From: an uncultured Bacilli bacterium
Lineage (GTDB): Bacteria > Bacillota_I > Bacilli_A > RF39 > UBA660
Reading direction: 5' to 3'
Assembly: GCA_944359065.1 (NCBI GenBank)
Contig: CALVSP010000008.1
Location: 1-33,943, forward strand
DNA: 33,943 nt
Positions 1,760 through 23,397 of this stretch are shown in pieces (the first letter of the stretch is position 1; each line of letters opens with the position of its first letter). The translations under genes and the position numbers were made by a program. The notes beneath the pieces are model-generated. The model was given only the letters and a program-made list of their open reading frames with translations. It was not told the DNA's origin and searched no databases.

Positions 1760-2353
1760 ATGACAAATGCCGAAAAAATCATAAAAATTGCAAACGAAAA
1801 TAATGGATATGTTACAACAAAACAAGTTAAAGAAGCAAAAATTAATACTATTGAATTGACAAGATTAGTTGAACAAGGCAAGTTAGACCGAATCGCTAGA
1901 GGTTATTATGCAATTAATAATTCTTTTTGTGATGATTATTTTAAATATCAATTAAAATCTAAAAAATGTGTTTTTTCCCATTCAACAGCTCTTTATTTTT
2001 ACGATTTATCAGATAGAACACCACTTTATTTTGATATGACTGTACCAGTTGGATATAATGGTAGCTTAAGTAAAAATAAAAATGTTGTGTTACACTATGT
2101 TAAAAAAGAATTTTTAGAATTAGGGCTAACTACAATTGAATCACCATTTGGAATGAAACTAAGAGTTTATGATAAAGAAAGGACAATTTGTGACATAGTT
2201 AAATATAGAAATCATATGGATAAAGAAATTTTAACAAAAGCATTAAAAAGGTATGCAGAAAGGAAAGACAAAGATTTACTTAAGTTGATGAAATATGCAA
2301 AAAAGTTAAATATTGATAAAAAAGTACTTGAATATATGGAGGTATTATTATAA
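1760..2353 (+). CDS. abiEi: AbiEi family antitoxin (type IV toxin-antitoxin system)
   Basis: This 197-residue protein has an N-terminal winged helix (about residues 1-50: GYVTTKQVKEAKI, then L-D-R-I-A-R-G-Y-Y) and a C-terminal domain with FSHSTALYFYDLSDRTP, as in AbiEi antitoxins. In studied systems AbiEi represses the operon by binding inverted repeats and counters the AbiEii nucleotidyltransferase without binding it. The start is supported by GAGGAAGTGAT upstream. Its stop overlaps the AbiEii start (TAATG), so the two are translationally coupled. As cargo of an integrative element the pair may stabilise the element or give abortive phage resistance; which one cannot be read from sequence. 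Confidence 0.9.
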   Translation: MTNAEKIIKIANENNGYVTTKQVKEAKINTIELTRLVEQGKLDRIARGYYAINNSFCDDYFKYQLKSKKCVFSHSTALYFYDLSDRTPLYFDMTVPVGYNGSLSKNKNVVLHYVKKEFLELGLTTIESPFGMKLRVYDKERTICDIVKYRNHMDKEILTKALKRYAERKDKDLLKLMKYAKKLNIDKKVLEYMEVLL

Positions 2354-3204
2354 TGAATTCTGATAAATTAAAAAGTATTATATCTAAAAAGGCACATGGC
2401 AATAGTGATATATCTCAAAAATTTTATCAATTATTTTACTTTGAAAGAATATTAGAAAGAATATCGAAAAGTAGTTATAGGGGTAAAATAATTTTAAAAG
2501 GAGGATTATTATTAACTTCTATTATTGGTGATGATGAACGAACTACTAAAGATATGGATGCTACTTTAAAAGGTATACCGCTAACCAAAAATGAAGTAGA
2601 AAAAGTGTTTAATGAAATACTTAATATGGATATTGATGATGAAGTGTTATTTAAAATTATATCAATTAAAGATATTAGATTAGAAGATGAATATGGCGGT
2701 TTTAGGTTAAATATTTTATCTAAATTAGATAATAATAAAACTTATATCACAGTCGAATTAACAACAGGTGATGTTATTACTCCAAGAGAAATTAAATACA
2801 ATTATAATTCGATTTTTGAAGATAAAAAAATACCTATAATGTCATATACTCTAGAAACAATATTAGCTGAGAAATTTCAAACTGTTGTTAATAGAGGATT
2901 ATTAAATACTAGGTTAAAAGATTTTTATGATATCTATATACTAGTAAATACAAAAATGAGTGAATTAAGTAAAGAAAATTTAATTAATGCGATAAAAAAT
3001 ACATTTAAAAGAAGAAAAACATTACTTGATATTGAACAAATTAACGAGATAATTAATGATTTAATTAGTGATAATAATATGAATAGTTTATGGGAAAACG
3101 CAGTTAGTAAAAATTCATATGCAAAAAATATAAGATTTGAAGATACTATTGATGCAATAAAAAAAATAGCCGAAATATTAGAATCAGAATTAGTTGAAGT
3201 ATAA
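2353..3204 (+). CDS. abiEii: AbiEii family toxin (nucleotidyltransferase)
   Basis: This 283-residue protein has the AbiEii/DNA polymerase beta-like nucleotidyltransferase signature: I-L-K-G-G-L-L-L at about residue 48, then T-T-K-D-M-D, where the acidic DxD residues bind metal. A downstream L-A-E-K-F-Q...R...K-D-F-Y-D-I-Y segment is typical of the family. AbiEii toxins use NTPs (GTP in the founding case) to modify a cellular target, and related MenT toxins act on tRNA. It overlaps the antitoxin gene by one base. Length is near the usual ~300 residues and key residues look intact, so the toxin is probably active. Confidence 0.9.
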   Translation: MNSDKLKSIISKKAHGNSDISQKFYQLFYFERILERISKSSYRGKIILKGGLLLTSIIGDDERTTKDMDATLKGIPLTKNEVEKVFNEILNMDIDDEVLFKIISIKDIRLEDEYGGFRLNILSKLDNNKTYITVELTTGDVITPREIKYNYNSIFEDKKIPIMSYTLETILAEKFQTVVNRGLLNTRLKDFYDIYILVNTKMSELSKENLINAIKNTFKRRKTLLDIEQINEIINDLISDNNMNSLWENAVSKNSYAKNIRFEDTIDAIKKIAEILESELVEV

Positions 3205-3520: not shown

Positions 3521-5188
3521 ATGGATCTATATACAGTTAGGAATAATATAATGAAAGGAATACCACTTCAAGAATTAAATTTAAGAGTTTGTTTTTATGC
3601 TCGTGTATCTACTGAAAAAGATGAACAAATAAATTCTTTAAAAAATCAAATAACTTTCTTTAATGATTATATAAATAAGATTCCTAAATGGGAATTTGCA
3701 GGTTCATATATCGATGAAGGTATTAGTGGGACTAGAGTTTTTAAACGAGAAGAATTCTTAAAAATGATTAATGATGCTAAAAATGGTAAATTTGATCTAA
3801 TTTTAACCAAAGAAATATCAAGGTTTTCAAGAAGTACCTTAGATAGTATTAAATTTACCCAAGAATTACTTGCTAGTGGAGTTGGAGTATATTTTTTAAA
3901 TGATAATATTAATACTATATTGCCAGATTCAGAGTTAAGACTTACTATTATGGCAAGTGTTGCCCAAGACGAGGTGCGAAAATTATCAGAAAGAGTATCA
4001 TTTGGAATGAAAAGAAGTATTGATAATGGTAATGTTTTAGGATGCTCTAATATTTATGGTTATGAAAAAGATAATGGGAAATTAGTTATTAATGAAAAAG
4101 AAGCGGAAATGATTAAAATAATTTTTGATAGATATGCGAATACGAATGATGGTTTATCTAAAATATCTAAATATTTATATGAATTAAATTATAAAACCAA
4201 AACTGGTAAAAGATTAGATACAACGATAATTACTAGAATAATTGAAAATCCTAAATACAAAGGATATTATTGTGGTAATAAAACAAAAGTATTAGATTAT
4301 AGAACTAAAAAGAAAAAGAAATTAGATAAAGATAATTGGATTATCTATAAAGATTATGATAAAGTGCCTCCAATTGTATCAGAAGAATTATGGGAAAGAG
4401 CCAATATCAAATTAAGAAAAAGACAAAAAAGTTATTTAAATAAAATAGAAGATAAAACAATATTTCATAATCGTTATACTTATTCAGGAAAAATATATTG
4501 TGGTGTTCATAATGTTACTTATCACAGGAATAGTGCTGGTAAAAGAAAAAATAATCCTGTATGGGAATGTCAGGTTTATCGAAAAGAAAGCTTAAAAGGG
4601 TGTACTAATAATAGAGTATTTGAATATGAGTTAGATGAGTTATTCAAAAGTATTATATCGAAACTTTATCTTGATAAAAAAATAATCTTTGATAGCCTCA
4701 TTAAAGAATGCAAGAGTTATTTATTATCTAAAAATAGTGATAATGAAATAAAAGTTTTAGAATCTAAATGTGAAGTTATAAAAAATAAAAAAGACAAATT
4801 ATTAGAACTTGTAATGGATGGATACTTAGAAAATATTGAATACAAAAAACAAATAGATAATTTAAATTTAGATTTAAATGAATATTTAGATAAAATAGAC
4901 AATCTAAAAAATAATAAGTTAGATGAATACTTAATCGAAAAAGAAATAAATAGTATAAGAGAAAACTTAGAACATTCTATAGAAGATAATTTGTGCTTAA
5001 GTGATATATTTAATTCTTTAGTAGAAAAAATAATTGTTAATAAAGATGAAAATAATCCTAAAAAAATAAAATTAGATATTATTTTTAAAACTGGAACAAC
5101 ATTAAAAGCATCCAGTAATAATTTAGGAAAAAAGTATCATTTAGAGGAGTACCTCACAACAAATAACAGCTGTTTCAGCCGCAATTAA
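3521..5188 (+). CDS. Large serine recombinase (integrase of element 1)
   Basis: This 555-residue protein has an N-terminal resolvase catalytic domain (CFYARVST, nucleophile Ser30; E-I-S-R-F-S-R), a recombinase domain from about residue 170, a zinc-ribbon-like segment (YCGVHN...ECQVY...GCTNN, about 325-370) and a coiled coil near 400-480. Such enzymes cut attP and attB with a 2-base stagger and join them; reversal needs a directionality factor. The start has GGGAGGGAAG upstream. Unusually, the last ~12 codons lie beyond the inferred attR junction and are read from the interrupted PBP gene in another frame, so the C-terminus (…TTNNSCFSRN) would change when the element excises. Confidence 0.92.
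   Translation: MDLYTVRNNIMKGIPLQELNLRVCFYARVSTEKDEQINSLKNQITFFNDYINKIPKWEFAGSYIDEGISGTRVFKREEFLKMINDAKNGKFDLILTKEISRFSRSTLDSIKFTQELLASGVGVYFLNDNINTILPDSELRLTIMASVAQDEVRKLSERVSFGMKRSIDNGNVLGCSNIYGYEKDNGKLVINEKEAEMIKIIFDRYANTNDGLSKISKYLYELNYKTKTGKRLDTTIITRIIENPKYKGYYCGNKTKVLDYRTKKKKKLDKDNWIIYKDYDKVPPIVSEELWERANIKLRKRQKSYLNKIEDKTIFHNRYTYSGKIYCGVHNVTYHRNSAGKRKNNPVWECQVYRKESLKGCTNNRVFEYELDELFKSIISKLYLDKKIIFDSLIKECKSYLLSKNSDNEIKVLESKCEVIKNKKDKLLELVMDGYLENIEYKKQIDNLNLDLNEYLDKIDNLKNNKLDEYLIEKEINSIRENLEHSIEDNLCLSDIFNSLVEKIIVNKDENNPKKIKLDIIFKTGTTLKASSNNLGKKYHLEEYLTTNNSCFSRN
5136..5165 (+). other. Inferred attR of element 1
   Basis: PBP-like coding sequence begins at about 5151, in the frame that reads T-S-Q-Q-I-T-A-V. 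An imperfect palindrome, GAGG-AGTA-CCTC (5144-5155), sits on the boundary and may be the crossover centre. The exact core cannot be fixed because the left junction is outside the window. Confidence 0.5.
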
Positions 5189-5825
5189 TGGTGGTAATTT
5201 ATATACTCCTTATATCGTTAAAAATTTAAATGAACCAGAAACTAATTCAGTAGTAGTTGAAAATAAACCTAGTGTAACAAGAAAAGTAATAACTGAAAAT
5301 ACTAGTGCACAAGTAAGATATGCTTTAGAAAGTGTTGTTGCTAATGGAACTGGTAGAAATGCTTATATATCTAATTATCGAGTTGGTGGTAAAACAGGAA
5401 CTGCCCAAAAAGTAGAAGATGGTAAGTATTTGGTAGGTAATTACATAACATCTTTTATGGGATTTTTACCAGCGGATGATCCTGAAGTAGTTGTATATAT
5501 TGCTATCGATAATGCTAAAGGAGTAACACAATATGGTGGTACAATTGCAGCACCAATAGCTAAAAATGTTTTAAATGCCGCAATTTCTGCTTTAAATATC
5601 GAGCCAAGATATGATGGTATGACTAAAGAATATAATTATGGTGATAAAAGATATTATACAGTTCCAAATGTAACAGGAATGGAAACTAAAGAAGCAGTAT
5701 CTAATTTAAAAGAATTTAAAGTTGAATTTAGTGGTAGTGGTAGTAAAATAATTCATCAATCACCAAGTGAAGGAAGTTATTTAGCAGAAGGTGAAGTAAT
5801 AAGATTAATGTTAGGAGATGAATAA
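5151..5825 (+). pseudogene. Class B penicillin-binding protein (SpoVD/FtsI type), 3' fragment cut off by element 1
   Basis: The frame ending at 5825 is open from the junction and encodes about 224 residues: TSQQITAVSAAINGG (a conserved transpeptidase segment), then GGKTGTAQKV, the KTG active-site motif, and a C-terminal PASTA domain (YYTVPNVTGM…EGSYLAEGEVIRLML). The SxxK and SxN parts of the active site must lie beyond the left end of element 1. SpoVD and its relatives cross-link peptidoglycan made by a SEDS partner. The stop overlaps the mraY start (TAATG), as expected for an intact operon. No start codon with a ribosome binding site is seen for the fragment. Precise excision should restore the gene. 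Confidence 0.88.
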
Positions 5826-7760: not shown

Positions 7761-8777
7761 ATGAAAAAATGTAATTTAACTTTATTAATAAGTGTAATAA
7801 TAATAAGTATTTTTGGTGTTTTGATGATTTATTCAGCATCTTACATTTGGGCAGAATATAAATATGGTGATGCTTTAAAATATGTTAAAAATCAAGGACT
7901 ATTCTTAATAGTTGGTATTATATTAATGATGATAATAAGTAAAATAGATTATAAAATATATTTAAAAAAATCTAATTTAATTTTAATTAGTTGTCTAATT
8001 TTATTAATATTAGTTTTAATACCAGGTATTGGTACCGTTCGAAATGGAAGTCGAAGTTGGTTTGGGATAGGTTCATTCGGTATTCAACCTAGTGAATTTA
8101 CCAAGTTAGGACTAATGATATTTGTATCTAAGTATTTATCATATAATGAAAAAGCAACAAAATCTTTTAAAGGTATTTTACCTATTTTAGGGTTACTTTT
8201 ATTAATATTTGGACTTATTATGTTACAACCTGATTTTGGAACAGGTACTATTATTGTAATGTCTATAATTGGTTTGTTATTTGTAGGTGGAGTTGACTTT
8301 AAATATTTTATTAGATTAGGTATTGTAGGAGTAATAGGTGTAGTAGGTTTAATTTTAGCCGCTCCTTACAGACTTAGTCGAATATTATCATTTCTAAATC
8401 CGTGGAGTGATCCTTTAGGTAGTGGGTTTCAAATTATTCAAAGTTTGTATGCCATAGGTCCAGGGGGATTATTTGGTTTTGGTATAGGTAATTCAAGACA
8501 AAAGCACTTCTTTTTACCGGAACCTCAAACAGATTTTATATTTTCTATAATAAGTGAAGAACTAGGATTTTTAGGATGTTTAATAATTATAACTTTATTT
8601 GTTATTATTTGTTATAATGGATTTAAATCATCGCGTAATTGTAATGATTTATTTGGTAAATATTTATCGTTTGGTATTATATTTCAAATTGCTTTCCAAG
8701 CTTGTTTAAATTTGATGGTCGTAGTAGGATTAATACCAGTAACGGGGTATGCAAGAAAATGGGAGAAAATAGTATAA
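7761..8777 (+). pseudogene. ftsW: SEDS peptidoglycan glycosyltransferase (FtsW/SpoVE), 5' part interrupted by element 2
   Basis: The first 328 residues are a SEDS protein: early TM helix with L-M-I-Y-S-A-S, the segment R-S-W-F-G-I-G-S-F-G-I-Q-P-S-E-F-T-K, LQPDFGTG, and F-F-L-P-E-P-Q-T-D-F-I-F-S-I-I-S-E-E-L-G-F. The chain reaches V-G-L-I-P-V-T-G, where FtsW/SpoVE should continue with (V/I)xLPFxSYGG. Instead ten foreign residues and a stop follow. The missing end is at 19825-19916; joined, the protein is 358 residues, the usual size. SEDS proteins polymerise lipid II as partners of class B PBPs. The truncated form lacks the last helix and conserved motif and is probably inactive. ftsW versus spoVE cannot be decided from sequence alone. 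Confidence 0.93.
8736..8756 (+). other. attL of element 2
   Basis: SEDS codons end at CCAGTAACG and element sequence GGTATGCAAG follows, with GGGG at 8744-8747 shared with the right junction (19822-19825). The restored attB is GTAAC-GGGT-GTTAC, a perfect 5-base inverted repeat about a GG centre, which suits a serine integrase site with a 2-base GG crossover. Confidence 0.85.
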
Positions 8778-9153: not shown

Positions 9154-10014
9154 ATGAAAAATTTTAGTATTATTGTTCCATCTCATAATGGTCAAAAATA
9201 TATTTCTAGATGTTTAAATTCAATTATGCAACAAACATATTCAAATTATGAAGTTATATTTATAAATGATAGTAGCACAGACTATACTTCAGATATTATT
9301 CGTTCTAACTTTAATTTTCCAAATATAAAATATTATGAAGTTTCATTTGAAGATATAAGTAAGGTGAGAAATTATGGGTTATCAAAAGTTAATGGCGATG
9401 CAATAATTTTTGTCGATGTTGATGATTGGATTGAAAAAAGTTTACTTGAGAAATTATCTATAGTTGACAACGAAAATGATATAATTCGATATCAAGGTAT
9501 TATGGTTGATAATGACAATAATATTTATGAAGAATATATTACAGATGAATTTTATAATTTTAATGGAATAGAAGTATTAAATAAGTTTGCAAGAGGGTTT
9601 GAAATATATAGCCCATCTTGGTTATATGCTTATGACTTCAGATTTTGGGAAAAAAATAATTTTAAGTTTCCAGTTGGAATGTTACAAGAAGATTTTGCAC
9701 TTACATCTTTAATTTTAAGTAAAGCAAAATGTGTTTCTAGTATTCCTTATATTGGATATTATTATTATAAAAGTCAAAACAGTATTATGAGAAATAATAA
9801 CTATGATAATCAAATAAAAAAAGCATATGATGTTTTGGTACACTGTGATAAATTTTATGAAAATATAATTTTAGGTGTACAAGATGAAACTATAAAAAAT
9901 AATTTAATTAAATATTATTTAACAGTAATTAGACATAAGTTAAATGTACTAAATAGTCCCGAAAAAGAATCTTATGAAAAACAATTAATATTAAGAGAAG
10001 AAAGGTGGAAGTAA
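9154..10014 (+). CDS. Glycosyltransferase family 2 protein
   Basis: This 286-residue protein has a GT-A fold signature: F-S-I-I-V-P-S-H-N-G at the N-terminus, F-I-N-D-S-S-T-D near residue 38, and I-F-V-D-V-D-D-W near 90, where DxD binds the metal and sugar nucleotide. Later FPVGMLQEDFAL (the E-D is typical of the acceptor/base region) and a C-terminal helical part follow. There is no membrane segment, so it acts in the cytosol or at the membrane face. AGGGGGA precedes the ATG. The radical SAM gene starts one base after its stop, so the pair is tightly coupled. Such enzymes normally build glycans or glycosylate small molecules; the acceptor here is unknown. Confidence 0.88.
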   Translation: MKNFSIIVPSHNGQKYISRCLNSIMQQTYSNYEVIFINDSSTDYTSDIIRSNFNFPNIKYYEVSFEDISKVRNYGLSKVNGDAIIFVDVDDWIEKSLLEKLSIVDNENDIIRYQGIMVDNDNNIYEEYITDEFYNFNGIEVLNKFARGFEIYSPSWLYAYDFRFWEKNNFKFPVGMLQEDFALTSLILSKAKCVSSIPYIGYYYYKSQNSIMRNNNYDNQIKKAYDVLVHCDKFYENIILGVQDETIKNNLIKYYLTVIRHKLNVLNSPEKESYEKQLILREERWK

Positions 10015-10015
10015 A

Positions 10016-11695
10016 ATGGAAAATATTAAGGCCTTTTTAAAAGAAAATTATGATGAAGCTATTAAACTAAAAGAAAGGTTTAAGATAACCGAAAATAAGG
10101 AATGGGATGCTATTACTATTTTGGCAGAACTTAATGTTCAATTAGGACATTTTAGTTATTTAATTTCAAAGCAAAAAAATTATGGTGAAAATGGTAGAAA
10201 TATTAATGACTTGGGTGACGAATTATCTGATGTAATTTTACAATTAATTAGCTTATGTTGGAAGTTAGATTTGGATTTTAAAAATTATGATTATAATTAC
10301 AAATACATAAGATTTGAAAATGTGGCAGAAGCAATATTAAGTTTTAATACGATTTATGGACAAATATCAGAAAAAGTTTTAGAAATTAAAAATTATAGAC
10401 ATTATAAAATAAGATATGGGTATGCAAAGGAAGAATATTTTTTATATTTTAATATAGCTAGATTATTTGAAATTATTTTTTCTGTTGCTTGTGATTTAGA
10501 TTTAAAAATGTTTAATGAATTTAAAAAAATGATTTTAGATGCATCAAAGTTTTTGGATAATTACGAGAAAAAAAAGACACCAAAATTTTATCCAGTTGTA
10601 GATGTTCATGCTACTTGGCTAGTATTAAATCCGATTCAAGGATGCCCAAAACAATGCAAATATTGTTTTTTAAAGGAAAGAGGATTGAATAAAATTCAAC
10701 CTATTATGTTAGTAAGCCCTGAAAAAGCAGTTGATTTATTGTTATCGAGTAAATTTTATATTAAAGATATGCCTTTATGCTTATTTTCGCAAACTGATGC
10801 ATTTTCTACATCTGATAATATAGAATATTTAAAACAGTTGATAGAAATATTAATGGAAAGAAAAATAAAAAATCCTATAGTTTTTATAACAAAGTGTAAA
10901 ATTCCGGAAGAATTTATAGATTTTATTGATAACTATGAGAAACAGGGACATAATTTTTTGTTTTTTTTAAGTTATTCAGGGTTAGATAAAAATATCGAAT
11001 TGGGAGTAAATAAAGAGATAATTGAAAATAATTTTATCAAATTATCAGAAAGGGGAAAGAAGATAATTCATTATTGGAGACCTTTTATTCCACAAAATTC
11101 CAAAAATGAAGAAGTAAAAAAAATATATGATTTTGTAAAAAAATATTGTATTGCTTCTGTTGCAATAGGTTTAAAGACTACAAATGATATTATAGATAAT
11201 ATAGAATGGGATGATTTAAAGAATAACCATAAAGAAGCATTGCAATCTGATAATGTATGGAATAAGGAAGCATATGATTATCTATGGAATAATTTAGCAA
11301 AAAATAAAGATTATCCTATTTTTCAAACTACAAGCTGTGCATTAGGATATGCATTAGGACAGGCTGATAGAAAATTTTTCTATAATACTGATATATGTAT
11401 TAATTGTAATAATTGTCCATTAGTTCAACGAAATCGTTGTAAAGAAAAATTTGAGCATTTTAAGTTTCCAGATAAAAAGTATATTAAATATTTAATAGAA
11501 AAACTTGACAAAAATATAGATATAGATAAAATTGATTTTATAGATAGAACAGTAGTTATTAAGGATTTGCAATTAAATTTTAATGAAATTTCATTTTTAA
11601 CTGAAAAACTAGGTGTTAAAATTGTGGTTGTAAAGAAAGAAAATGATTATTATTGGAATACATCTATAAATAATGCAACAATTTTAAAAATTTAG
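10016..11695 (+). CDS. MazG-like domain fused to a radical SAM domain
   Basis: In this 559-residue protein, residues ~1-90 look MazG-like, all helical, with G-D-E-L-S-D-V-I-L-Q-L (Glu69xxAsp72) matching half of the metal-binding pattern; the first EExxE half is degenerate. Residues ~100-185 are a second helical unit that may be a diverged repeat. From ~195 a radical SAM domain follows: N-P-I-Q-G-C-P-K-Q-C-K-Y-C-F with the CxxxCxxC cluster (Cys210, 214, 217). Cys461, 464, 467 and 475 near the C-terminus (CINCNNCPLVQRNRC) could bind a second cluster. The radical SAM part is loosely reminiscent of spore photoproduct lyase-like proteins. MazG domains hydrolyse (d)NTPs, so a nucleotide-linked radical reaction is plausible but unproven. 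Confidence 0.75.
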   Translation: MENIKAFLKENYDEAIKLKERFKITENKEWDAITILAELNVQLGHFSYLISKQKNYGENGRNINDLGDELSDVILQLISLCWKLDLDFKNYDYNYKYIRFENVAEAILSFNTIYGQISEKVLEIKNYRHYKIRYGYAKEEYFLYFNIARLFEIIFSVACDLDLKMFNEFKKMILDASKFLDNYEKKKTPKFYPVVDVHATWLVLNPIQGCPKQCKYCFLKERGLNKIQPIMLVSPEKAVDLLLSSKFYIKDMPLCLFSQTDAFSTSDNIEYLKQLIEILMERKIKNPIVFITKCKIPEEFIDFIDNYEKQGHNFLFFLSYSGLDKNIELGVNKEIIENNFIKLSERGKKIIHYWRPFIPQNSKNEEVKKIYDFVKKYCIASVAIGLKTTNDIIDNIEWDDLKNNHKEALQSDNVWNKEAYDYLWNNLAKNKDYPIFQTTSCALGYALGQADRKFFYNTDICINCNNCPLVQRNRCKEKFEHFKFPDKKYIKYLIEKLDKNIDIDKIDFIDRTVVIKDLQLNFNEISFLTEKLGVKIVVVKKENDYYWNTSINNATILKI

Positions 11696-11864
11696 TTAAT
11701 AAAGTATATAAAATGGCTTATTTTTCTGTAGAAAGTATTTTGAAAAAACAAAAAATATTTTTGGCTGATGATGAAATTTCATTTTTTCTCATTTATATTT
11801 TATGAAAGAGAATATTTGAATTAATTAAAGCTGATAAATCATAGTAAAATTTGTGGGAGGAATA

Positions 11865-12308
11865 ATGAAAAAATTACAAATAGGGATTAATGATAAAAAT
11901 TTAAAATATGATTTCCGTGAAATGTGTTTTGGAATTTATGTTAAAGATAAAAAAATATATTTAACTCAAAAAAAAGGAGAAATTTCATTAATAGGTGGCG
12001 GTAAAGAAATTGGTGAAACATTTCAAGAATGTTTATATAGAGAATTTTTAGAAGAAAGTGGTTGTAAGTTAAAAAAAATTAAACATTTTTGCTCAATAGA
12101 CTGTTTTTGGATTACTAGAAATAAAAAGTATATGGAATCACTAGCACATATTTTTTTAGTAGATATAGAAGATAATATAAATAAACCATTAGAAAAAGAA
12201 TCAGAATTAGTTATAATAGATATACATAATGCTTTAGACTATTTAGAATTACCTTATCAAAGAAAAGCATTGGAATTATATCTTGCTAAGTATGGAAATT
12301 TGCTATGA
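11865..12308 (+). CDS. NUDIX hydrolase
   Basis: This 147-residue protein has a complete NUDIX box, GGKEIGETFQECLYREFLEE followed by SG (Gx5Ex7RExxEExG), at about residues 45-67. The family cleaves nucleoside diphosphates linked to another group, such as ADP-ribose, sugar nucleotides or damaged dNTPs, using Mg2+ held by the REUxEE glutamates. The ATG at 11865 is chosen over the GTG at 11853 because GGGAGG (11855-11860) is then correctly spaced. Its last four bases (ATGA) are also the start of the next gene, so the two proteins are made together. That neighbour has ADP-ribosyltransferase-like motifs, which would fit an ADP-ribose-type substrate. Confidence 0.9.
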   Translation: MKKLQIGINDKNLKYDFREMCFGIYVKDKKIYLTQKKGEISLIGGGKEIGETFQECLYREFLEESGCKLKKIKHFCSIDCFWITRNKKYMESLAHIFLVDIEDNINKPLEKESELVIIDIHNALDYLELPYQRKALELYLAKYGNLL

Positions 12309-13567
12309 ATTTATATGATTTAATTTCTAAAATGATTACAGATGAATATAATGTTAGATTATCTCAAAAAGAATTTGATGTTATATGTCATCAATATCAA
12401 ATAAGTGCTAGTGAGTTGAAAAAATATGTTAGTATGATTAGTAAACATAAATATTTGAAAAAATTAGATATACAAGATGATATAAAAAGATATCATAGTT
12501 GTCGAGAAAATGATATGGCTTTTGTTTTTCAATTTGAAAAAATTTTAAATAATGAGAAAATTCAAGAAATTTTGCAATTGATTCAAAATAGAAATTTTAG
12601 CTTTGATTTAAGAAAAATAGGTATTAATGCCATTACTTGGGCAGACACACAATTATTTTTACAATCTTTACTTTTACAAAAAATGTATTGTTTTTTGATA
12701 ATGAATCAAAATGAAATTTACGATTATGAGTTTGTAGAAAACTATTTGGATAAAATTATAACCAACTGTAAAGTATCGGTAAATTTTGAAGATTTATTAT
12801 ATAGGTGCGATGATATTTTATTGAAAAATATAGTTTCAAAAGCAAATTTTAAAAAAGATGAATTTTTAACAATGATAAAGCAGAATTTTATAGATAAAGG
12901 ATATTGTTTTCATGGATTTAATAGTCAATTTGAAAGTCAAATTCTGAAATATGGACTTTCTGGTTCTTTAAATTGTTGTGATACATATGAAATGTTAAAA
13001 ATAGATAATATTTTTAGAAATTATAATATGAATGGTGTTTTTCAACAAAATTGGAGTTATCAACAAAATCCTAATTTTTTTACTACTGATAATTTTGGCG
13101 CTGCCTATTATTATTCTGTATTATCACCTGTTTTTATGTCAAGACTTGTTAGCAATGGAAATTATATGTCTAATGAAATTTTATTTGATAGAACAGCTTT
13201 TATTCAAAGAGATTTGAATGCTTGTATCAATAATATAAATGCATTGCTAATACAATATAATGTGCTACAAAATGATAGTGATTATATCAAGAAATACCTA
13301 AAGAATTATTTAGAATTTCTATTTAAAGATAAAGATAATTTAAAAATTGCTTTTTTTCCTCGCCATGATATAAATAGAGATTTTTCTGATAATTATGATA
13401 AGGCAACAATGATGCAAGGTGAATTATCAGTTGAAGAATTATTAAAAATTGCTTTAAAACCTTCATTTGAAATTGATAGACATCAAAATACAACATATGA
13501 TTCCAGTATTATAAGTTCAATTACTATTCCAAATTATGCAAAAAGTTTAATTAAAAAAAGAAATTAA
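12305..13567 (+). CDS. Unrecognised protein with ADP-ribosyltransferase-like motifs
   Basis: I do not recognise this 420-residue protein as a named family. Residues 1-195 are mainly helical. From ~198 the order K-G-Y-C-F-H-G-F (His203), L-K-Y-G-L, then P-N-F-F-T-T-D-N-F-G-A-A-Y-Y-Y (Tyr268-270) and Q-G-E-L-S-V-E-E-L-L (Gln371, Glu373) recalls the H–Y–[Q]xE layout of the ADP-ribosyltransferase fold (PARP, Tpt1/KptA and DarT relatives), including the 'HG…I…GL' and 'fTt…A..Y' spacing. There is no membrane segment. It overlaps the NUDIX stop by 4 bases, and its 3' end overlaps that of the convergent kinase gene by 4 bases. A toxin or effector using NAD is one reading; a non-enzymatic role cannot be excluded. 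Confidence 0.45.
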   Translation: MNLYDLISKMITDEYNVRLSQKEFDVICHQYQISASELKKYVSMISKHKYLKKLDIQDDIKRYHSCRENDMAFVFQFEKILNNEKIQEILQLIQNRNFSFDLRKIGINAITWADTQLFLQSLLLQKMYCFLIMNQNEIYDYEFVENYLDKIITNCKVSVNFEDLLYRCDDILLKNIVSKANFKKDEFLTMIKQNFIDKGYCFHGFNSQFESQILKYGLSGSLNCCDTYEMLKIDNIFRNYNMNGVFQQNWSYQQNPNFFTTDNFGAAYYYSVLSPVFMSRLVSNGNYMSNEILFDRTAFIQRDLNACINNINALLIQYNVLQNDSDYIKKYLKNYLEFLFKDKDNLKIAFFPRHDINRDFSDNYDKATMMQGELSVEELLKIALKPSFEIDRHQNTTYDSSIISSITIPNYAKSLIKKRN

Positions 13568-14055
13568 TATTTAATTAATTTCTTAACTTTTTCCAATGTT
13601 TGTTGTTCATTGTAATTGGCTGTATTAATTTTGTAAACTGGCATAAAATTACTTGCTTGCTCTAGTCTATAATCAAATTCTTCTAATAATGATTTATATA
13701 AATGTAACAATACTACTCTATCATTTAAATCATCCTTCCGTCTTTCCAATAGTAATTCTTGTGGTGCATATAAATATATAATACTAGAATTATTTCTAGT
13801 ATACAATTTAAGTAATTTTAAATAATTTTGTTCAGAAATTTTTGTTTTATTACTTAATATTTTTCCATAAACCATTACACTTATAAAAGAACGATCCATT
13901 ACTGAATTAATTGATGATTTATCAAAAGTGTCTACATATTTATAATAAAAATTTTTAAAATCATTGTTTGGAATTACTAATTGTTTTCCTTGTTTAGTCA
14001 AATTAGTTATTAAAGTTGTTTTTCCACAACCATCTAAACCTTCAACAATAATCAT
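13564..14055 (-). CDS. dTMP kinase-like/deoxynucleoside kinase-like P-loop protein
   Basis: This 163-residue protein begins M-I-I-V-E-G-L-D-G-C-G-K-T-T (Walker A, residues 5-13), like thymidylate kinases. M-D-R-S-F near residue 55 matches the DR(Y/S) motif of dTMP and deoxynucleoside kinases, and L-L-E-R-R-K-D-D-L-N-D-R is a plausible LID. It is shorter than bacterial Tmk (~205), so the substrate may differ. The ATG at 14055 is chosen because GGAAGCG lies just before it; an upstream in-frame ATG at 14088 lacks a site. It is the only minus-strand cargo gene, convergent with the ART-like gene and divergent from the phosphoesterase gene, with about 70 nt for both promoters. Confidence 0.75.
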   Translation of the reverse strand: MIIVEGLDGCGKTTLITNLTKQGKQLVIPNNDFKNFYYKYVDTFDKSSINSVMDRSFISVMVYGKILSNKTKISEQNYLKLLKLYTRNNSSIIYLYAPQELLLERRKDDLNDRVVLLHLYKSLLEEFDYRLEQASNFMPVYKINTANYNEQQTLEKVKKLIKY

Positions 14056-14126
14056 ATATATCGCTTCCTTGATGATATATATTAACATAATTTAAATAAA
14101 ATATCAACGTAAAAGAGGTGTATGTT

Positions 14127-14930
14127 ATGCAAGAAAAAATAGCATTGATATCAGATGTTCATGCTAATTTAGAAGCTTTAAAAGCAGTTCTTATGGATAT
14201 AAAGAAACATAATATAAAAATAATTTATTCTTTAGGTGATATTATCGGACTTGGTAATCGTCCTAGTGAATGTTTAAAGTTAATTATAGAAAATAATATT
14301 ATAAATATTCTAGGAAATGCTGAAGAATATGTAATATTTGGTGCTGATAGTTTTGATTATTTAAAAAAATATAATATTGCACGTTATTATAATGCTATAT
14401 GGACAAAAGAAAAATTAACAAGTGATCAAATTTGTGCGTTACAGAGAATGCCGCATTCAATAGATATTGAAATTGAAAATCAAAAGATTGCGTTGTGCCA
14501 TTTTCCTATTGATGTACGATATGATTATTCTGGTGTATGGAAATATAATGGTGAAGATGTTAGTTCTTTTTTTGAAACCAACACTCAAAAAGATATGAGG
14601 TTTTCTAATTATCAAATACCGCTTTTAATATCATCAAAGAATGATCCATTATTTGGTGGAAAAAGAATAGATGAATATAATTGTATAATTTATGGACATT
14701 ATCATTTTTTTAGAAAACATATAAAAAATAATATAATTTTTTATTCACTCAATGGAACTGGTGTAGCAATTGATAAACAAGCAATATATTATGTTTTAGA
14801 AAATGTTAATAATAGAATTATTCTTACAGAAAACAAAGTTGATTATGACTATAAAAAATTGCATTATGAATTAAATAATACTGATTATCCTAATAAAGAA
14901 ACATTTGAAAAATATATTAAAAAATTATGA
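14127..14930 (+). CDS. Metallophosphoesterase (ApaH/YfcE-like)
   Basis: This 267-residue protein has the calcineurin-like metal-binding motifs in order: I-S-D-V-H (DxH), L-G-D-I-I-G (GDxxG), L-G-N-A-E-E (in place of GNHD/E), L-C-H-F-P and I-Y-G-H-Y-H (GHxH). The Ala where the family usually has His is seen in some subfamilies. Members cleave phosphomonoesters, phosphodiesters or dinucleoside polyphosphates. The ATG at 14127 lies 8 nt after GAGG; an in-frame GTG at 14118 overlaps that site and is less likely. Its TGA stop is also the TG of an extended -10 promoter for the next gene. Confidence 0.85.
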   Translation: MQEKIALISDVHANLEALKAVLMDIKKHNIKIIYSLGDIIGLGNRPSECLKLIIENNIINILGNAEEYVIFGADSFDYLKKYNIARYYNAIWTKEKLTSDQICALQRMPHSIDIEIENQKIALCHFPIDVRYDYSGVWKYNGEDVSSFFETNTQKDMRFSNYQIPLLISSKNDPLFGGKRIDEYNCIIYGHYHFFRKHIKNNIIFYSLNGTGVAIDKQAIYYVLENVNNRIILTENKVDYDYKKLHYELNNTDYPNKETFEKYIKKL

Positions 14931-14960: not shown

Positions 14961-15713
14961 ATGGATGAAAAAGATATTGAAAAAGCAAAAAACGATTTAA
15001 GAGTAAAATTTAATTATTTAATCAACAATAAAATTAATACTTTTTCTGCTATACCTGAAGATAATATGAGTAAAATAATAATTTATTGTCATGGGTTAGG
15101 TAGTAACAAAACGTGGGCAACTAGATTTTATGATAATTTATTAAAAAATAAAATTGGTATTATTTCTTTTGATTTTCCTGGTCATGGAGAAGATAAAACA
15201 GATTTTTCACTTTTTACTTTGAATTTATGTATAAAATACCTGGAAGAAATGATTACATATGTAAAAACAAAGTATGATGTACCTATATATTTGTTTGGAT
15301 GTAGTTTTGGTGGTTTTGTAATTTTAAATAAATTAATAAAGAATAGTGAAAATATAGAAAAAACAATGTTAATGTGCCCAGCTATTAATTTTTGTGAGAT
15401 TATGGAAAATAAATCGGGAATATCAATTGATTATTTTAATACTAATGAATTTATGCCTTTGTATAATAATATTAAAATATATAAAGATGCTTATCTTCAG
15501 TTTAAAAATGGCGATAATGTTGTTAAAAATTATGATTTTCAAAATATTTCAATAATTCATGGGACATCTGATAAAACTGTTCTTTATAAAGATATTAGTG
15601 ATTTTTGTAAGAAGAATAATTTGAAATTAACAACTATTGAAGATGGAAAACATGAACTATATAATTATGATAATGAAATTGTTAATTTTTTATTGAAAGA
15701 TATTAATGAATAA
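14961..15713 (+). CDS. Alpha/beta hydrolase
   Basis: This 250-residue protein shows I-I-Y-C-H-G-L-G-S near residue 40 (oxyanion-hole segment), S-F-D-F-P-G-H-G-E-D, the nucleophile elbow G-C-S-F-G-G with Ser115, G-T-S-D-K-T with a candidate Asp near 203, and D-G-K-H-E-L with His231. The triad is therefore complete, as in thioesterase/esterase-like members. There is no signal peptide. AGAGGAG precedes the ATG. It is followed after 27 nt by the large CitC-like gene, so the two are probably one transcript. The substrate is unknown; it is not closely similar to the element 1 hydrolase. Confidence 0.8.
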   Translation: MDEKDIEKAKNDLRVKFNYLINNKINTFSAIPEDNMSKIIIYCHGLGSNKTWATRFYDNLLKNKIGIISFDFPGHGEDKTDFSLFTLNLCIKYLEEMITYVKTKYDVPIYLFGCSFGGFVILNKLIKNSENIEKTMLMCPAINFCEIMENKSGISIDYFNTNEFMPLYNNIKIYKDAYLQFKNGDNVVKNYDFQNISIIHGTSDKTVLYKDISDFCKKNNLKLTTIEDGKHELYNYDNEIVNFLLKDINE

Positions 15714-15740
15714 TATTTAAAATTGAGGGGGGAAATGTTA

Positions 15741-17807
15741 ATGAGTAAAGTAATTCATATAAGTGAATCTGATGTTAATTTAAAACATAAATTAATTAAT
15801 ATATTTTTACAAAATCAAGAATCAATTGTAGCTTTAGATAATGAGCAATTCATAACTTACGATTCTTTTTTAAATAATATTCGTAATGGCAGTGATTTAA
15901 AAATTACATTTGATGAATTGACTATATATACAAAAGAAAAAAATGATAAAGATAATAGTGATTGGAAGAATACATCAATTGATTTAACTAGGTGGAAATG
16001 TTTATATGCTAATAATGATAAAATTATTAATTATTTAAGAAGCAGAAAACCGAAAAAAGTTTTTGTTAGGGGTGGATTATCACAAGAATTATTTAATTAC
16101 ATAAATGTTTATGGTAATGAATTCTCTACTTCTATTATTCCTATTGATTATGATAATTATTTAAGTTCTCTTTTAGAAGAAAATTCATTATTAATAGATA
16201 CAGATTTATTTTCAATGGATTTAAAACAAGAGATAAATAGACATTGTAGACTTGATAAAGAATTATCTTCTAGTATATTAAATATAAATGAATTATGTAA
16301 TGAATCAGAAATATATTATTTTGTTAATAGTTTTTTAAAAGATAAATCTTTTGAAACTTATGTGTTTGAATTTCCAGATAATGACCAGTTCACAGAATTG
16401 ACATTCACAGAACAGTTGAGAATGAAAGCCAAAGTTAATTATATATATTACCTTAGTAATTGTATGAATGATCCTGAAATAAGAAATTTAGTAGAAATAG
16501 TTATGGGTGATTTATTTACTGAAGATTATATAGACAAGAAGAATTTATCTCCCGGAACTATATTAAAAAATGGTATTTGTAGATTGGCAGATTCTAATAA
16601 TGATTTTTGTAAAAGTATTAATGGAATTAGATATACTACAGATAAAATTTATGATTATGCATTTGATATTAATATATTTGGTCCTTGTATGGTATATGGT
16701 GCTTTAGTAGATGATAAACATACTATAGCAAGTTATTTACAGAGAAAAGTTAATATTGATAATATGGATTATTCAGTTAATAATTACGGCTTAAGAGCCA
16801 TGGAATTACCTGAACAAATAAGGATTGCTGACAATGTAAATATAAAAAATGGTGATAAAATGATTTTTATTATTTCAACAGAAGAAAAACAAAAACTTGC
16901 TAAATTAGGTTTTACTGATGTAGAAACTTTATTGCCTATTTTTAATAATAGTACTTTACACAATTATTTTTTTGATAAACCAGCGCATTGTAATCATGTT
17001 GCAAATGGATATATTGCTGATTATATATATGATAAGATTAAAAAGAACTTATTAGCGATTAATCCTCAAAATAAAGAAAGTGCAATCCTTATAAAAAGAA
17101 ATCAAAAAAGAAATGTATTTTCAAATAATAAATTTATTGATGAATATTTGTCTATGTTAAAAAGCTTAGATATACCAGATGGTCCAAATGGTGCAATATT
17201 AATGAATTGTAATCCATTTACTTATGGACATTATAATTTAATAAAATATGCTTCTGAACAAGTAGAAAAATTATTTGTTATAGTAGTTCAAGATGATAAA
17301 TCTGTATTTAAGTTTAATGATAGATTTAAAATGGTACAGAATGGTTGCAAAGATTTTTCTAATGTTATAGTTATTCCAAGTGGAAAAATATTTGGTTCAT
17401 CAATGATTTTTCCAGAGTACTTTAATAGAGAAGAAAAAACTGATGTTACTATAGATGTATCACTAGATAGAGAAATATTTACTGATTATATAGCCCCTAT
17501 ATTAAATGTTAAAAAGAGATTTATTGGAGAAGAAAAAAATGATATTATTACTGCATCATATAATAGAGAATTAAAAAAAAATTTACCTTTATATGGTATT
17601 GAAGTTATTGAGATACCTAGATTTACTGATCAAAATGGTCAAGCCATTAGTGCAAAAGTTGTAAGAAATGCTCTAGAAAATAATGATTGGGATACAATTT
17701 ATCAATTAGTTCCACCAACTACAATAAATGTGTTACAAAATTATAGTAATGATATCAGAGAAGGTAAAGTTAAAGAAAAAAAACTTCAAAAAAATATTTT
17801 TGATTAA
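15741..17807 (+). CDS. Large protein with C-terminal citrate-lyase-ligase-like nucleotidyltransferase domain
   Basis: In this 688-residue protein, residues ~480-680 resemble the C-terminal domain of [citrate lyase] ligase CitC: A-I-L-M-N-C-N-P-F-T-Y-G-H-Y-N-L-I carries the (H/T)xGH nucleotide-binding motif, followed by V-V-Q-D-D and R-F-K-M-V. CitC transfers acetyl to the lyase cofactor through acetyl-AMP. Residues ~280-390 (F-G-P-C-M-V-Y-G…V-N-N-Y-G-L-R) recall SGNH-like folds, with low certainty. The N-terminal 250 residues are unrecognised. No citrate lyase genes are nearby, so another acyl or nucleotidyl acceptor is likely. The ATG at 15741 is 9 nt after AGGGGGG; the ATG at 15735 is too close to it. 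Confidence 0.65.
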   Translation: MSKVIHISESDVNLKHKLINIFLQNQESIVALDNEQFITYDSFLNNIRNGSDLKITFDELTIYTKEKNDKDNSDWKNTSIDLTRWKCLYANNDKIINYLRSRKPKKVFVRGGLSQELFNYINVYGNEFSTSIIPIDYDNYLSSLLEENSLLIDTDLFSMDLKQEINRHCRLDKELSSSILNINELCNESEIYYFVNSFLKDKSFETYVFEFPDNDQFTELTFTEQLRMKAKVNYIYYLSNCMNDPEIRNLVEIVMGDLFTEDYIDKKNLSPGTILKNGICRLADSNNDFCKSINGIRYTTDKIYDYAFDINIFGPCMVYGALVDDKHTIASYLQRKVNIDNMDYSVNNYGLRAMELPEQIRIADNVNIKNGDKMIFIISTEEKQKLAKLGFTDVETLLPIFNNSTLHNYFFDKPAHCNHVANGYIADYIYDKIKKNLLAINPQNKESAILIKRNQKRNVFSNNKFIDEYLSMLKSLDIPDGPNGAILMNCNPFTYGHYNLIKYASEQVEKLFVIVVQDDKSVFKFNDRFKMVQNGCKDFSNVIVIPSGKIFGSSMIFPEYFNREEKTDVTIDVSLDREIFTDYIAPILNVKKRFIGEEKNDIITASYNRELKKNLPLYGIEVIEIPRFTDQNGQAISAKVVRNALENNDWDTIYQLVPPTTINVLQNYSNDIREGKVKEKKLQKNIFD

Positions 17808-22434: not shown

Positions 22435-22462
22435 AAAAATATGGGAAACCATATTTTTTTTT
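22434..22462. terminator. Bidirectional terminator between gmk and the collagen-like gene
   Basis: AAAAAATATGG and CCATATTTTTT flank a GAAA tetraloop, with T runs in both directions. It serves both convergent genes and overlaps the collagen gene stop. Confidence 0.85.
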
Positions 22463-23258
22463 AATTTATTCTTGTAATTGAAACACATCCTGAATATAAA
22501 TCATTTGGTACTAATTCAAAGTCAACTTGTGAAGCATTTACAAATCTATAACTTCCACCTGCTGTTGCTTCAAAAATGGCATTACCATTGATTGTACCAG
22601 TTTGACAGCATGAAACTTTGTTATGAGTCGAAGAATGTGCTATTAATTCAACATTCGGCCAAAATTTTCTAAATTCAATGCTCAAAGCTTTATCTTCACA
22701 ATTTTTTCCTTTATTTCTAACATTTACCCACCAATGAATTATATATATTCCTTTTTCAGGAATAGAAAAATCACCAGTTATAGGACTATAAGAAATTTTG
22801 CTTGCTAAATTAGTATTTTGGAATAATATTGGATTTTGTACGGGTACAGTAGAATTGGATAAATCGTGTACCATAGCATAACTTTGAAATGATGATCCGG
22901 TAGGCCCTGTTGGTCCAGTTGCTCCTTTTGGTCCGGTAGGCCCTGTTGGTCCAGTTGCTCCTTTTGGTCCGGTAGGCCCTGTTGGTCCAATATCGCCCTT
23001 TGGTCCGGTAGATCCAGTTGCTCCTTTTGGCCCAGTAGGTCCAGTTGGACCTTGAATTCCAGTAGCGCCAGTATCACCAGTTCTTCCTTGAGGCCCAGTT
23101 GCTCCTTGAGGCCCAGTACATCCTGTACAACCGCATGGTCCAGTAGGTCCGGTAGGACCAGTAGGCCCTGTTTCACAAATATCAATTAAACATTTTATTA
23201 CTTGGCAAAGACAATCATTATTACACTCAATATTATTTTCAACAAAATTATTATCCAC
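22461..23258 (-). CDS. Collagen-like (G-X-T) surface protein with BclA-type C-terminal domain
   Basis: The protein has 265 residues. Residues ~1-29 are Cys-rich ([18 protein letters not shown]). About 30 G-X-Y triplets, mostly GPT, GPK and GAT, fill ~31-121, including an unusual [11 protein letters not shown] 140-residue C-terminal domain follows with a TNF-like pattern ([22 protein letters not shown]), as in BclA exosporium glycoproteins and related surface filaments. There is no signal peptide or LPXTG. The GTG start is chosen because AAGGAG lies 7 nt before it; upstream codons lack a site. Thr residues in such repeats are often glycosylated. BclA homologs are spore-surface proteins in several Bacillota, but the family also occurs in non-spore settings. 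Confidence 0.85.
22897..22989 (-). repeat. 36-base tandem repeat in the collagen-like gene
   Basis: A 36-base unit encoding [12 protein letters not shown] begins at 22897, 22933 and 22969 (the third is partial) and appears identical at DNA level. Such perfect repeats change number by slippage and would alter the length of the collagen stalk. Confidence 0.85.
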
Positions 23259-23397
23259 ATTGATTCTCCTTTCATCATTATTATATGTAAACCAATAAAT
23301 TATGAATAAGCGAAAAACTATCAAAAAATAGCGAAAATTTATTCGTATTTATTTACATTATAATTAATAAATGTTAAACTTTTAATAAGGTGGTTTT
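23259..23397. promoter_or_regulatory. Divergent promoter region between the collagen-like and polymerase genes
   Basis: On the minus strand ACATATAATA lies just before the AAGGAG site; it holds both TATAAT and the CATAnnnTA form of SigK-like -10 boxes. AGCGAAAA occurs twice about 23 nt apart (near 23306 and 23329), flanked by GAATAA/TTATTC arms. These could be operator sites for either gene. Confidence 0.4.

Follow-up and report, generated by a model that had tools for sequence, protein, structure and literature searches.

What does a protein do in which a domain resembling MazG-type NTP pyrophosphohydrolases and a radical SAM enzyme share one open reading frame? The question is raised by an ORF of an uncultured, gut-type Bacilli bacterium, located in a stretch of 33,943 nucleotides (contig CALVSP010000008.1, hereafter the window) at positions 10016–11695 of the forward strand. 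The ORF begins with ATG and codes for 559 amino acids, made up of an all-alpha N-terminal domain, which we call Mz, and a radical SAM part (rSAM). The same fused ORF was found in several separate metagenome-assembled genomes at 76–99% identity, within the same genus (G001, 99%; G013, 90%) as well as in the Bacilli loci L018–L021 and L061, where L061 and the G001 contig are probably one record and not two independent copies. Since the fused ORF recurs in separate assemblies and again, with 557 residues, in Clostridiales UBA3678 (L024), an assembly join or a chance arrangement can be excluded. A structural model of the whole protein had a pLDDT of 91.9.

Searched alone against Pfam, NCBIfam, PADLOC and the PDB, the window protein gave a sub-threshold Radical_SAM match and weak matches to radical SAM families only; PADLOC yielded no match to the fusion itself, nor did a phage collection and a first viral scan. 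The initial annotation knew of no standard enzyme with this domain order, and we likewise found no curated family with the architecture. No curated family or paper describing the rSAM–Mz gene set was found either, and a literature search conducted largely outside subscription journals gave no paper joining radical SAM, MazG, NUDIX and glycosyltransferase. The fusion is not a unique protein: it is the joined form of a widespread two-gene operon pair.

The two parts of the fused protein

Mz comprises residues 1–188 (10016–10579, forward strand) and was recognized from Pfam matches of its homologues, profile alignment, an AlphaFold2 model and PDB fold matches. The window copy had no Pfam match, falling short of the PF03819 (MazG) gathering score and giving no PF03819 match even at E ≤ 1; at E ≤ 0.001, neither PF03819 nor PF08761 (dUTPase_2) matched anything in the window's genome. 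Among 39 Mz homologues, 18 matched PF03819 (E below 1, best 7.8e-4) and 16 matched MazG-like PF12643 (E below 1, best 6.2e-5). With hhalign, the Mz profile aligned to a MazG alignment at a probability of 92% (residues 27–92) and to PF08761 at 64%, and its weak PDB matches were all MazG or DCTPP1 proteins. When 395 genomes of the class were searched, the profile weakly recovered ORFs of ∼100 amino acids, one of which, in G094, is the ORF found by PF03819 itself. The homologue matches and the profile alignment support the initial annotation in relating this part to the MazG superfamily with its ExxD motif kept.

At full length, the closest fold is that of the dimeric dUTPases and not that of MazG. 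The Mz model (pLDDT 95.9) superposed on whole dimeric dUTPases (6h4b, Z 13.1; 5myd, 12.8; 5mil, 12.6; the C. jejuni enzyme, 10.4), the first three over 133–151 residues, whereas true MazG structures align chiefly with the first half of Mz, at Z ≤ 7. For a helical bundle, a Z of ∼13 is weak by itself, and the dUTPase-fold assignment is credible through the profile evidence. A tandem MazG repeat had been considered and was dropped after the fold search for a single dUTPase-like domain. The likeness to the dimeric all-alpha dUTPases of staphylococcal phage, Campylobacter and trypanosomes runs over residues 1–188 (Z 10–13, rmsd 2.9–4.5) and includes a common ExxD motif, but identity is 7–15%, Mz has QxxH for ExxE and PF08761 is blind to it. 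MazG, DCTPP1 and PF12643 resemble Mz in profile over residues 27–92, ExxD included; MazG-like proteins, however, are of ∼100 amino acids, compared with ∼185 amino acids and six helices in Mz, in which two metal ligands are changed.

In both profile alignments, Q42 and H45 fall on the two glutamates of the metal-binding ExxE motif, and E69 and D72 on ExxD. Across the whole Mz family ExxE is replaced by QxxH and ExxD is invariant, leaving the superfamily metal motif partly in place; the invariant residues are L18, F22, W30, E38, Q42, R61, D68, E69, D72, G115, E119 and R128. The first half had initially been described as degenerate, which is correct as to the loss of ExxE, but since all of the family shares this replacement, Mz is probably a distinct, functional variant and not a decayed copy. 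Because two of the four superfamily metal ligands are replaced, it is possible that Mz hydrolyses nothing. Judged from profiles and model, Mz is a remote relative of the MazG superfamily with a predicted dimeric-dUTPase-like fold and a QxxH...ExxD variant of the motif.

The radical SAM part (residues 192–559; 10589–11692, forward strand) was recognized from PF04055, the CxxxCxxC motif and the model. The window copy scores 28.5 bits against PF04055 over residues 205–307 (gathering score, 29.5 bits) and 46 of 52 relatives match this family, while the motif cysteines C210, C214 and C217 are invariant in all 52, bearing out the radical SAM core reported initially. Its top fold matches are radical SAM enzymes, and it belongs to the radical SAM superfamily. 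PFL-activase, SPL, SkfB, RlmN, viperin and NifB were tied at Z 13–15; assigning a function from this search was dropped because the tied folds do not discriminate. The best sequence matches to the core are the SplB-like families PA0069 (NF033668) and Rv2578c (NF038135), with an E-value of 3e-9 for the Streptomyces copy at L011 and 0.006 for the window copy. Against NF033668, the window copy reached 15.6 bits and the best relative 36.3, the cut-off being 360; the matches fall well short of the cut-offs of both families. PA0069 and Rv2578c differ in their partner genes, whereas a C-terminal Cys4 site and an Mz partner are found on the rSAM side. By sequence comparison, rSAM is thus an undescribed subfamily that appears nearest to PA0069/Rv2578c. 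Viperin has the same core fold (Z 13, a score shared by many other enzymes), and distant rSAM relatives lie near nucleotide kinases; unlike viperin, the rSAM family has the C-terminal Cys4 site, and NCBIfam and PADLOC gave no viperin match for the window copy. SPASM (Pfam, E ≤ 0.01) matched none of the 52 members.

The alignment of 52 relatives revealed a second conserved cysteine set, C441-x19-C461-x5-C467-x7-C475 (11336–11440, forward strand), as a putative auxiliary Fe-S site. C441, C467 and C475 are invariant in the 52 relatives and C461 in all close ones; a distant actinomycete and viral branch has a compact C-x2-C-P-x2-Q-x3-C form instead, and every inspected row carried either the four cysteines or this CxxCPxxQxxxC variant. 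The Cys4 set that had been noticed near residue 465 is therefore real, but C464 does not belong to it, being an extra of the window copy (cysteine in 12 of 51 rows). Nor is the set peculiar to the fusion protein, as had been supposed; the entire rSAM family has it. From this conservation, a second cluster held at C441/C461/C467/C475 is probable.

Pairing, fusions and gene neighbourhood

Scanning 84,980 species genomes gave 80 loci, and a second viral scan, using the alignment, added one close and seven distant loci on viral contigs. A joint alignment of the fusion with the separate Mz and rSAM genes misaligned the Mz rows, and the alignments A3 and A4 took its place. Mz abuts or is fused to rSAM in 43 of 49 close-family loci, a few of which are near-identical pairs; where the genes abut, they mostly lie within 84 bp of each other (258 bp in one case). 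Adjacent separate genes occur in Bacilli, Clostridia and Actinobacteria. Of the 43 loci with Mz, 36 have a NUDIX gene no more than ∼3.4 kb away. The Mz–rSAM fusion appears in two separate places of the rSAM tree, and in a Clostridium sister locus (L022) the two genes overlap in the same order as in the fusion. The Mz and rSAM distance matrices are correlated (r = 0.92, a value reached in none of 2000 permutations; 0.77 and 0.88 within phyla), indicating that Mz and rSAM evolve as a unit. Strong matches in the 395 genomes of the class numbered three for rSAM and four for Mz, with three genomes shared, and the system is accessory in the class. One locus (L007, genome G053) has Mz but no rSAM; there, Mz lies in divergent orientation to a NUDIX gene and a P-loop kinase gene.

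As annotated initially, the fused ORF starts one base after a glycosyltransferase gene. This GT2 gene (9154–10014, forward strand; PF00535, 3.4e-26) occupies the same place in L018–L021 and L061, the five Bacilli loci in which it abuts the fusion, and is missing in most relatives. Mz is otherwise fused to GT2 (L025/L026) or to NUDIX (e.g. L045 and L053). L025, from a different Bacilli lineage, contains three GT2 genes, a polysaccharide pyruvyltransferase-like gene and a deacetylase-like gene; the GT2 half of its GT2–Mz fusion, which lies beside the rSAM gene, is 39% identical to the window GT2 and the closest of the three, the others being at 27–28%. It had been suggested that the glycosyltransferase and the fusion modify one substrate. 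Support for a link between GT2 and the fusion is confined to the window's clade, and a shared substrate is not a general property because most relatives lack GT2 and the constant partner is NUDIX.

Downstream of the fusion, the window encodes a NUDIX protein whose Nudix box is complete (11853–12308, forward strand; PF00293, 1.2e-9). In L018, L019 and L021, an RfbF/GalU-type nucleotidyltransferase gene stands between fusion and NUDIX, whereas the window, L020 and L061 are without it. The next gene (12305–13567, forward strand), restricted to the window's clade (L018–L021 and L061), codes for a 420-amino-acid protein of no known family that had no Pfam match at E ≤ 0.01; by eye, a stretch around 'CFHGFN...ILKYGLSG' resembles an ADP-ribosyltransferase-type core. 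A deoxynucleoside-kinase/dTMP-kinase-like P-loop protein follows on the reverse strand (13564–14088; PF01712, 5.3e-7; also in L019–L021 and L061), with weak PADLOC matches to the models PDC-M51B and VakA. The cassette continues on the forward strand with a calcineurin-like phosphoesterase (14118–14930; PF12850, 3.8e-10; L019, L021 and L061), an alpha/beta hydrolase (14961–15713; PF12146, 4.5e-14; L019, L020 and L061) and a 694-amino-acid protein with a C-terminal citrate-lyase-ligase-type nucleotidyltransferase domain (15723–17807; PF08218, 1.9e-54; L019, L020 and L061).

Other lineages show orders of their own. The arrangement rSAM–Mz–DUF6206-like, in which the third gene is kinase-like, occurs in 13 actinobacterial loci, 12 of which continue with HPrK-like, nucleotidyltransferase and NUDIX genes, followed in seven by UDP-GlcNAc 2-epimerase (WecB). 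In ∼17 Bacilli loci the order is LysR–rSAM–Mz, mostly with NUDIX next and often fused to Mz. In the rSAM tree, close relatives that lack Mz group together in a single clade, made up of Streptomyces/Nonomuraea proteins; related plasmid copies without Mz adjoin dCTP deaminases, a cytidine deaminase, UTP-glucose-1-phosphate uridylyltransferase and GT4, and other such copies adjoin MurA and a class II aldolase. In the distant branch (∼25% identity), neighbouring genes code for HD proteins, for P-loop kinases of a NadR-like or dTMP-kinase-like type and for an RNase-T-like exonuclease. These loci lie on actinomycete chromosomes, in plasmid regions rich in defence systems (Shedu, ABC-three-component) and on viral contigs, there beside thymidylate synthase; on the viral contigs, names such as NadR-like and thymidylate synthase were read from the sequence by eye. 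Given these neighbours of the Mz-less and distant relatives, nucleotide enzymes are the neighbours that stay constant throughout the rSAM family. Four viral or prophage loci from IMG/VR (L101–L104) carry a row of thymidylate-synthase-like, distant rSAM, RNase-T-like exonuclease, NadR-like kinase and aldo/keto-reductase-like genes, a candidate nucleotide-modification cassette.

A proposed pathway and its alternatives

We propose, giving it about an even chance, that the fusion, which joins the two members of a conserved rSAM–Mz unit, serves a short pathway whose substrate is a nucleotide or a nucleotide-activated compound. The nucleotide is suggested by the neighbouring genes and by the Mz fold; within the close family, the resemblance of the Mz profile and modelled fold to nucleotide pyrophosphohydrolases is consistent with it. 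A nucleotide or NDP-sugar-like compound would be handled by rSAM and Mz in one pathway, in which Mz, with ExxE/ExxD rebuilt to QxxH/ExxD, might bind the phosphorylated substrate beside the radical site and present it or, alternatively, cleave it with altered metal use. The rSAM site would cleave SAM and perform a radical rearrangement or oxidation, the C441/C461/C467/C475 site would hold a second [4Fe-4S] cluster, and the NUDIX partner could remove or trim a diphosphate. At some loci, the nucleotidyltransferase and glycosyltransferase might then activate or transfer the product. A bolder version, to which we lean somewhat less than evenly, is that of a new nucleotide(-sugar) pathway of Firmicutes and Actinobacteria, where a dUTPase-fold QxxH/ExxD domain would hand its phosphorylated substrate to a two-cluster radical SAM enzyme within one polypeptide, giving a novel product.

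House cleaning is the role usually given to all-alpha NTP pyrophosphohydrolases. In the present family, a variant form of such an enzyme is the constant rSAM partner, fused to rSAM twice and also to a glycosyltransferase and to NUDIX. The fusions and the syntenic actinobacterial operons narrow the search for new radical chemistry on a nucleotide-like compound to a small testable set, rSAM, Mz and NUDIX, and the natural fused construct lets substrate handover to the radical site be studied. A radical SAM enzyme combined with a phosphate-removing enzyme is known from nucleoside antibiotics: PolH with the phosphatase PolJ in the polyoxin pathway and TubB with the NUDIX protein TubG, which tailors nucleotides, in the tubercidin pathway, as described in the available parts of PMC5365060 and PMC6112128, where no Mz is named for either cluster. 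The likeness, to which the Streptomyces rSAM relatives beside MurA may be added, is an analogy, and no membership is claimed. Membership in PolH/NikJ, to which the MurA neighbours had pointed, was dropped on a comparison by description: PMC5365060 places the CxxxCxxC motif of PolH at 225–232 and gives it one [4Fe-4S] cluster.

The Mz fold and the NUDIX partner would also suit a viperin-like enzyme making a chain-terminating or damaging nucleotide against phages or competitors, with Mz and NUDIX limiting self-damage. Distant relatives in defence-rich regions (Shedu, ABC-three-component) and on contigs of viruses or prophages that also encode thymidylate synthase and kinases, the weak PADLOC matches of the cassette kinase and the presence of viperin among the tied folds point the same way. 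In the close family, however, the syntenic genes are those for sugar nucleotides and epimerases and not those for defence, Mz lacks two metal ligands and seems ill-suited to be a house-cleaning hydrolase, and the fusion has no PADLOC match of its own, so that we consider a toxic nucleotide unlikely. Some copies lie near genes for GT2, polysaccharide pyruvyltransferase and deacetylase, which could instead indicate a glycan. In that case rSAM would epimerize, oxidize or dehydrate a carrier-bound sugar for transfer by GT2, and Mz would be a regulatory nucleotide sensor, a pseudoenzyme. Surface-glycan modification of this kind is consistent with a GT2 gene that precedes the fusion in five Bacilli loci and is joined to Mz in L025, with the RfbF/GalU-type gene beside the fusion in three loci, with the remaining glycan-type genes of L025 and with WecB in seven actinobacterial loci; it does not account for the ∼17 Bacilli loci that consist of LysR–rSAM–Mz–NUDIX only, with no sugar gene, and we regard it as similarly improbable.

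Two further explanations carry far less weight. Maturation of a small peptide of the RiPP type, modified by an auxiliary-cluster radical SAM enzyme and glycosylated by GT2, would agree with SuiB, SkfB and anSME among the fold matches and with HPrK-like kinases, which occur in some lasso-peptide clusters; we hold it very unlikely, as the alignment members have no SPASM Pfam match, no conserved small ORF was seen beside the rSAM–Mz pair and the constant partners are nucleotide enzymes. Handling of DNA or RNA lesions in the manner of spore photoproduct lyase is the most improbable reading. The nearest sequences are SplB-like (PA0069, 3e-9 for the Streptomyces copy), SPL is among the top tied folds and an RNase-T-like exonuclease adjoins the distant branch, but a repair enzyme would hardly be as unevenly distributed as this accessory system, which gave strong matches in 3 of the 395 genomes searched in the class, and the sugar-nucleotide neighbours fit such an enzyme poorly.

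Recombinases and other genes of the window

In the window, the cassette is flanked by serine recombinases, and another such gene occurs near L022; transport of the cassette by such recombinases was considered and dropped, since none was present within the examined flanks of L019 and L020. An AbiEi/AbiEii type IV toxin-antitoxin pair (1760–3204) adjoins a serine recombinase. Directly upstream of the cassette and travelling with it is an FtsW/SpoVE-like gene (7761–8777 in the window; 7165–8229 in L061); in L061 this gene and the cassette stand behind exopolysaccharide-like genes, and in the window mraY is upstream. Further downstream, on the reverse strand (22461–23324), lies a gene whose product has collagen-like triple-helix repeats and a C1q-like end and is of a kind found on spore surfaces.

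Within positions 3521–5825, a SpoVD/FtsI-type penicillin-binding-protein (PBP) gene upstream of mraY is cut by a large serine recombinase. What remains of it are the last 226 codons (5145–5825), and the recombinase stop codon lies inside this remnant. In a comparison covering loci L152–L165, an orthologous recombinase overlaps the same remnant in five other species of the genus (L154–L158), two further PBP genes, both close to the end of a contig, are interrupted at that same codon, and the gene is intact, with 640–645 codons, in four species (L161–L164). The window's genome has the same PBP gene cut a second time, on contig C1, with another serine recombinase nearby (L152). The PBP gene appears to be a recurrent integration site, reminiscent of skin-type elements.
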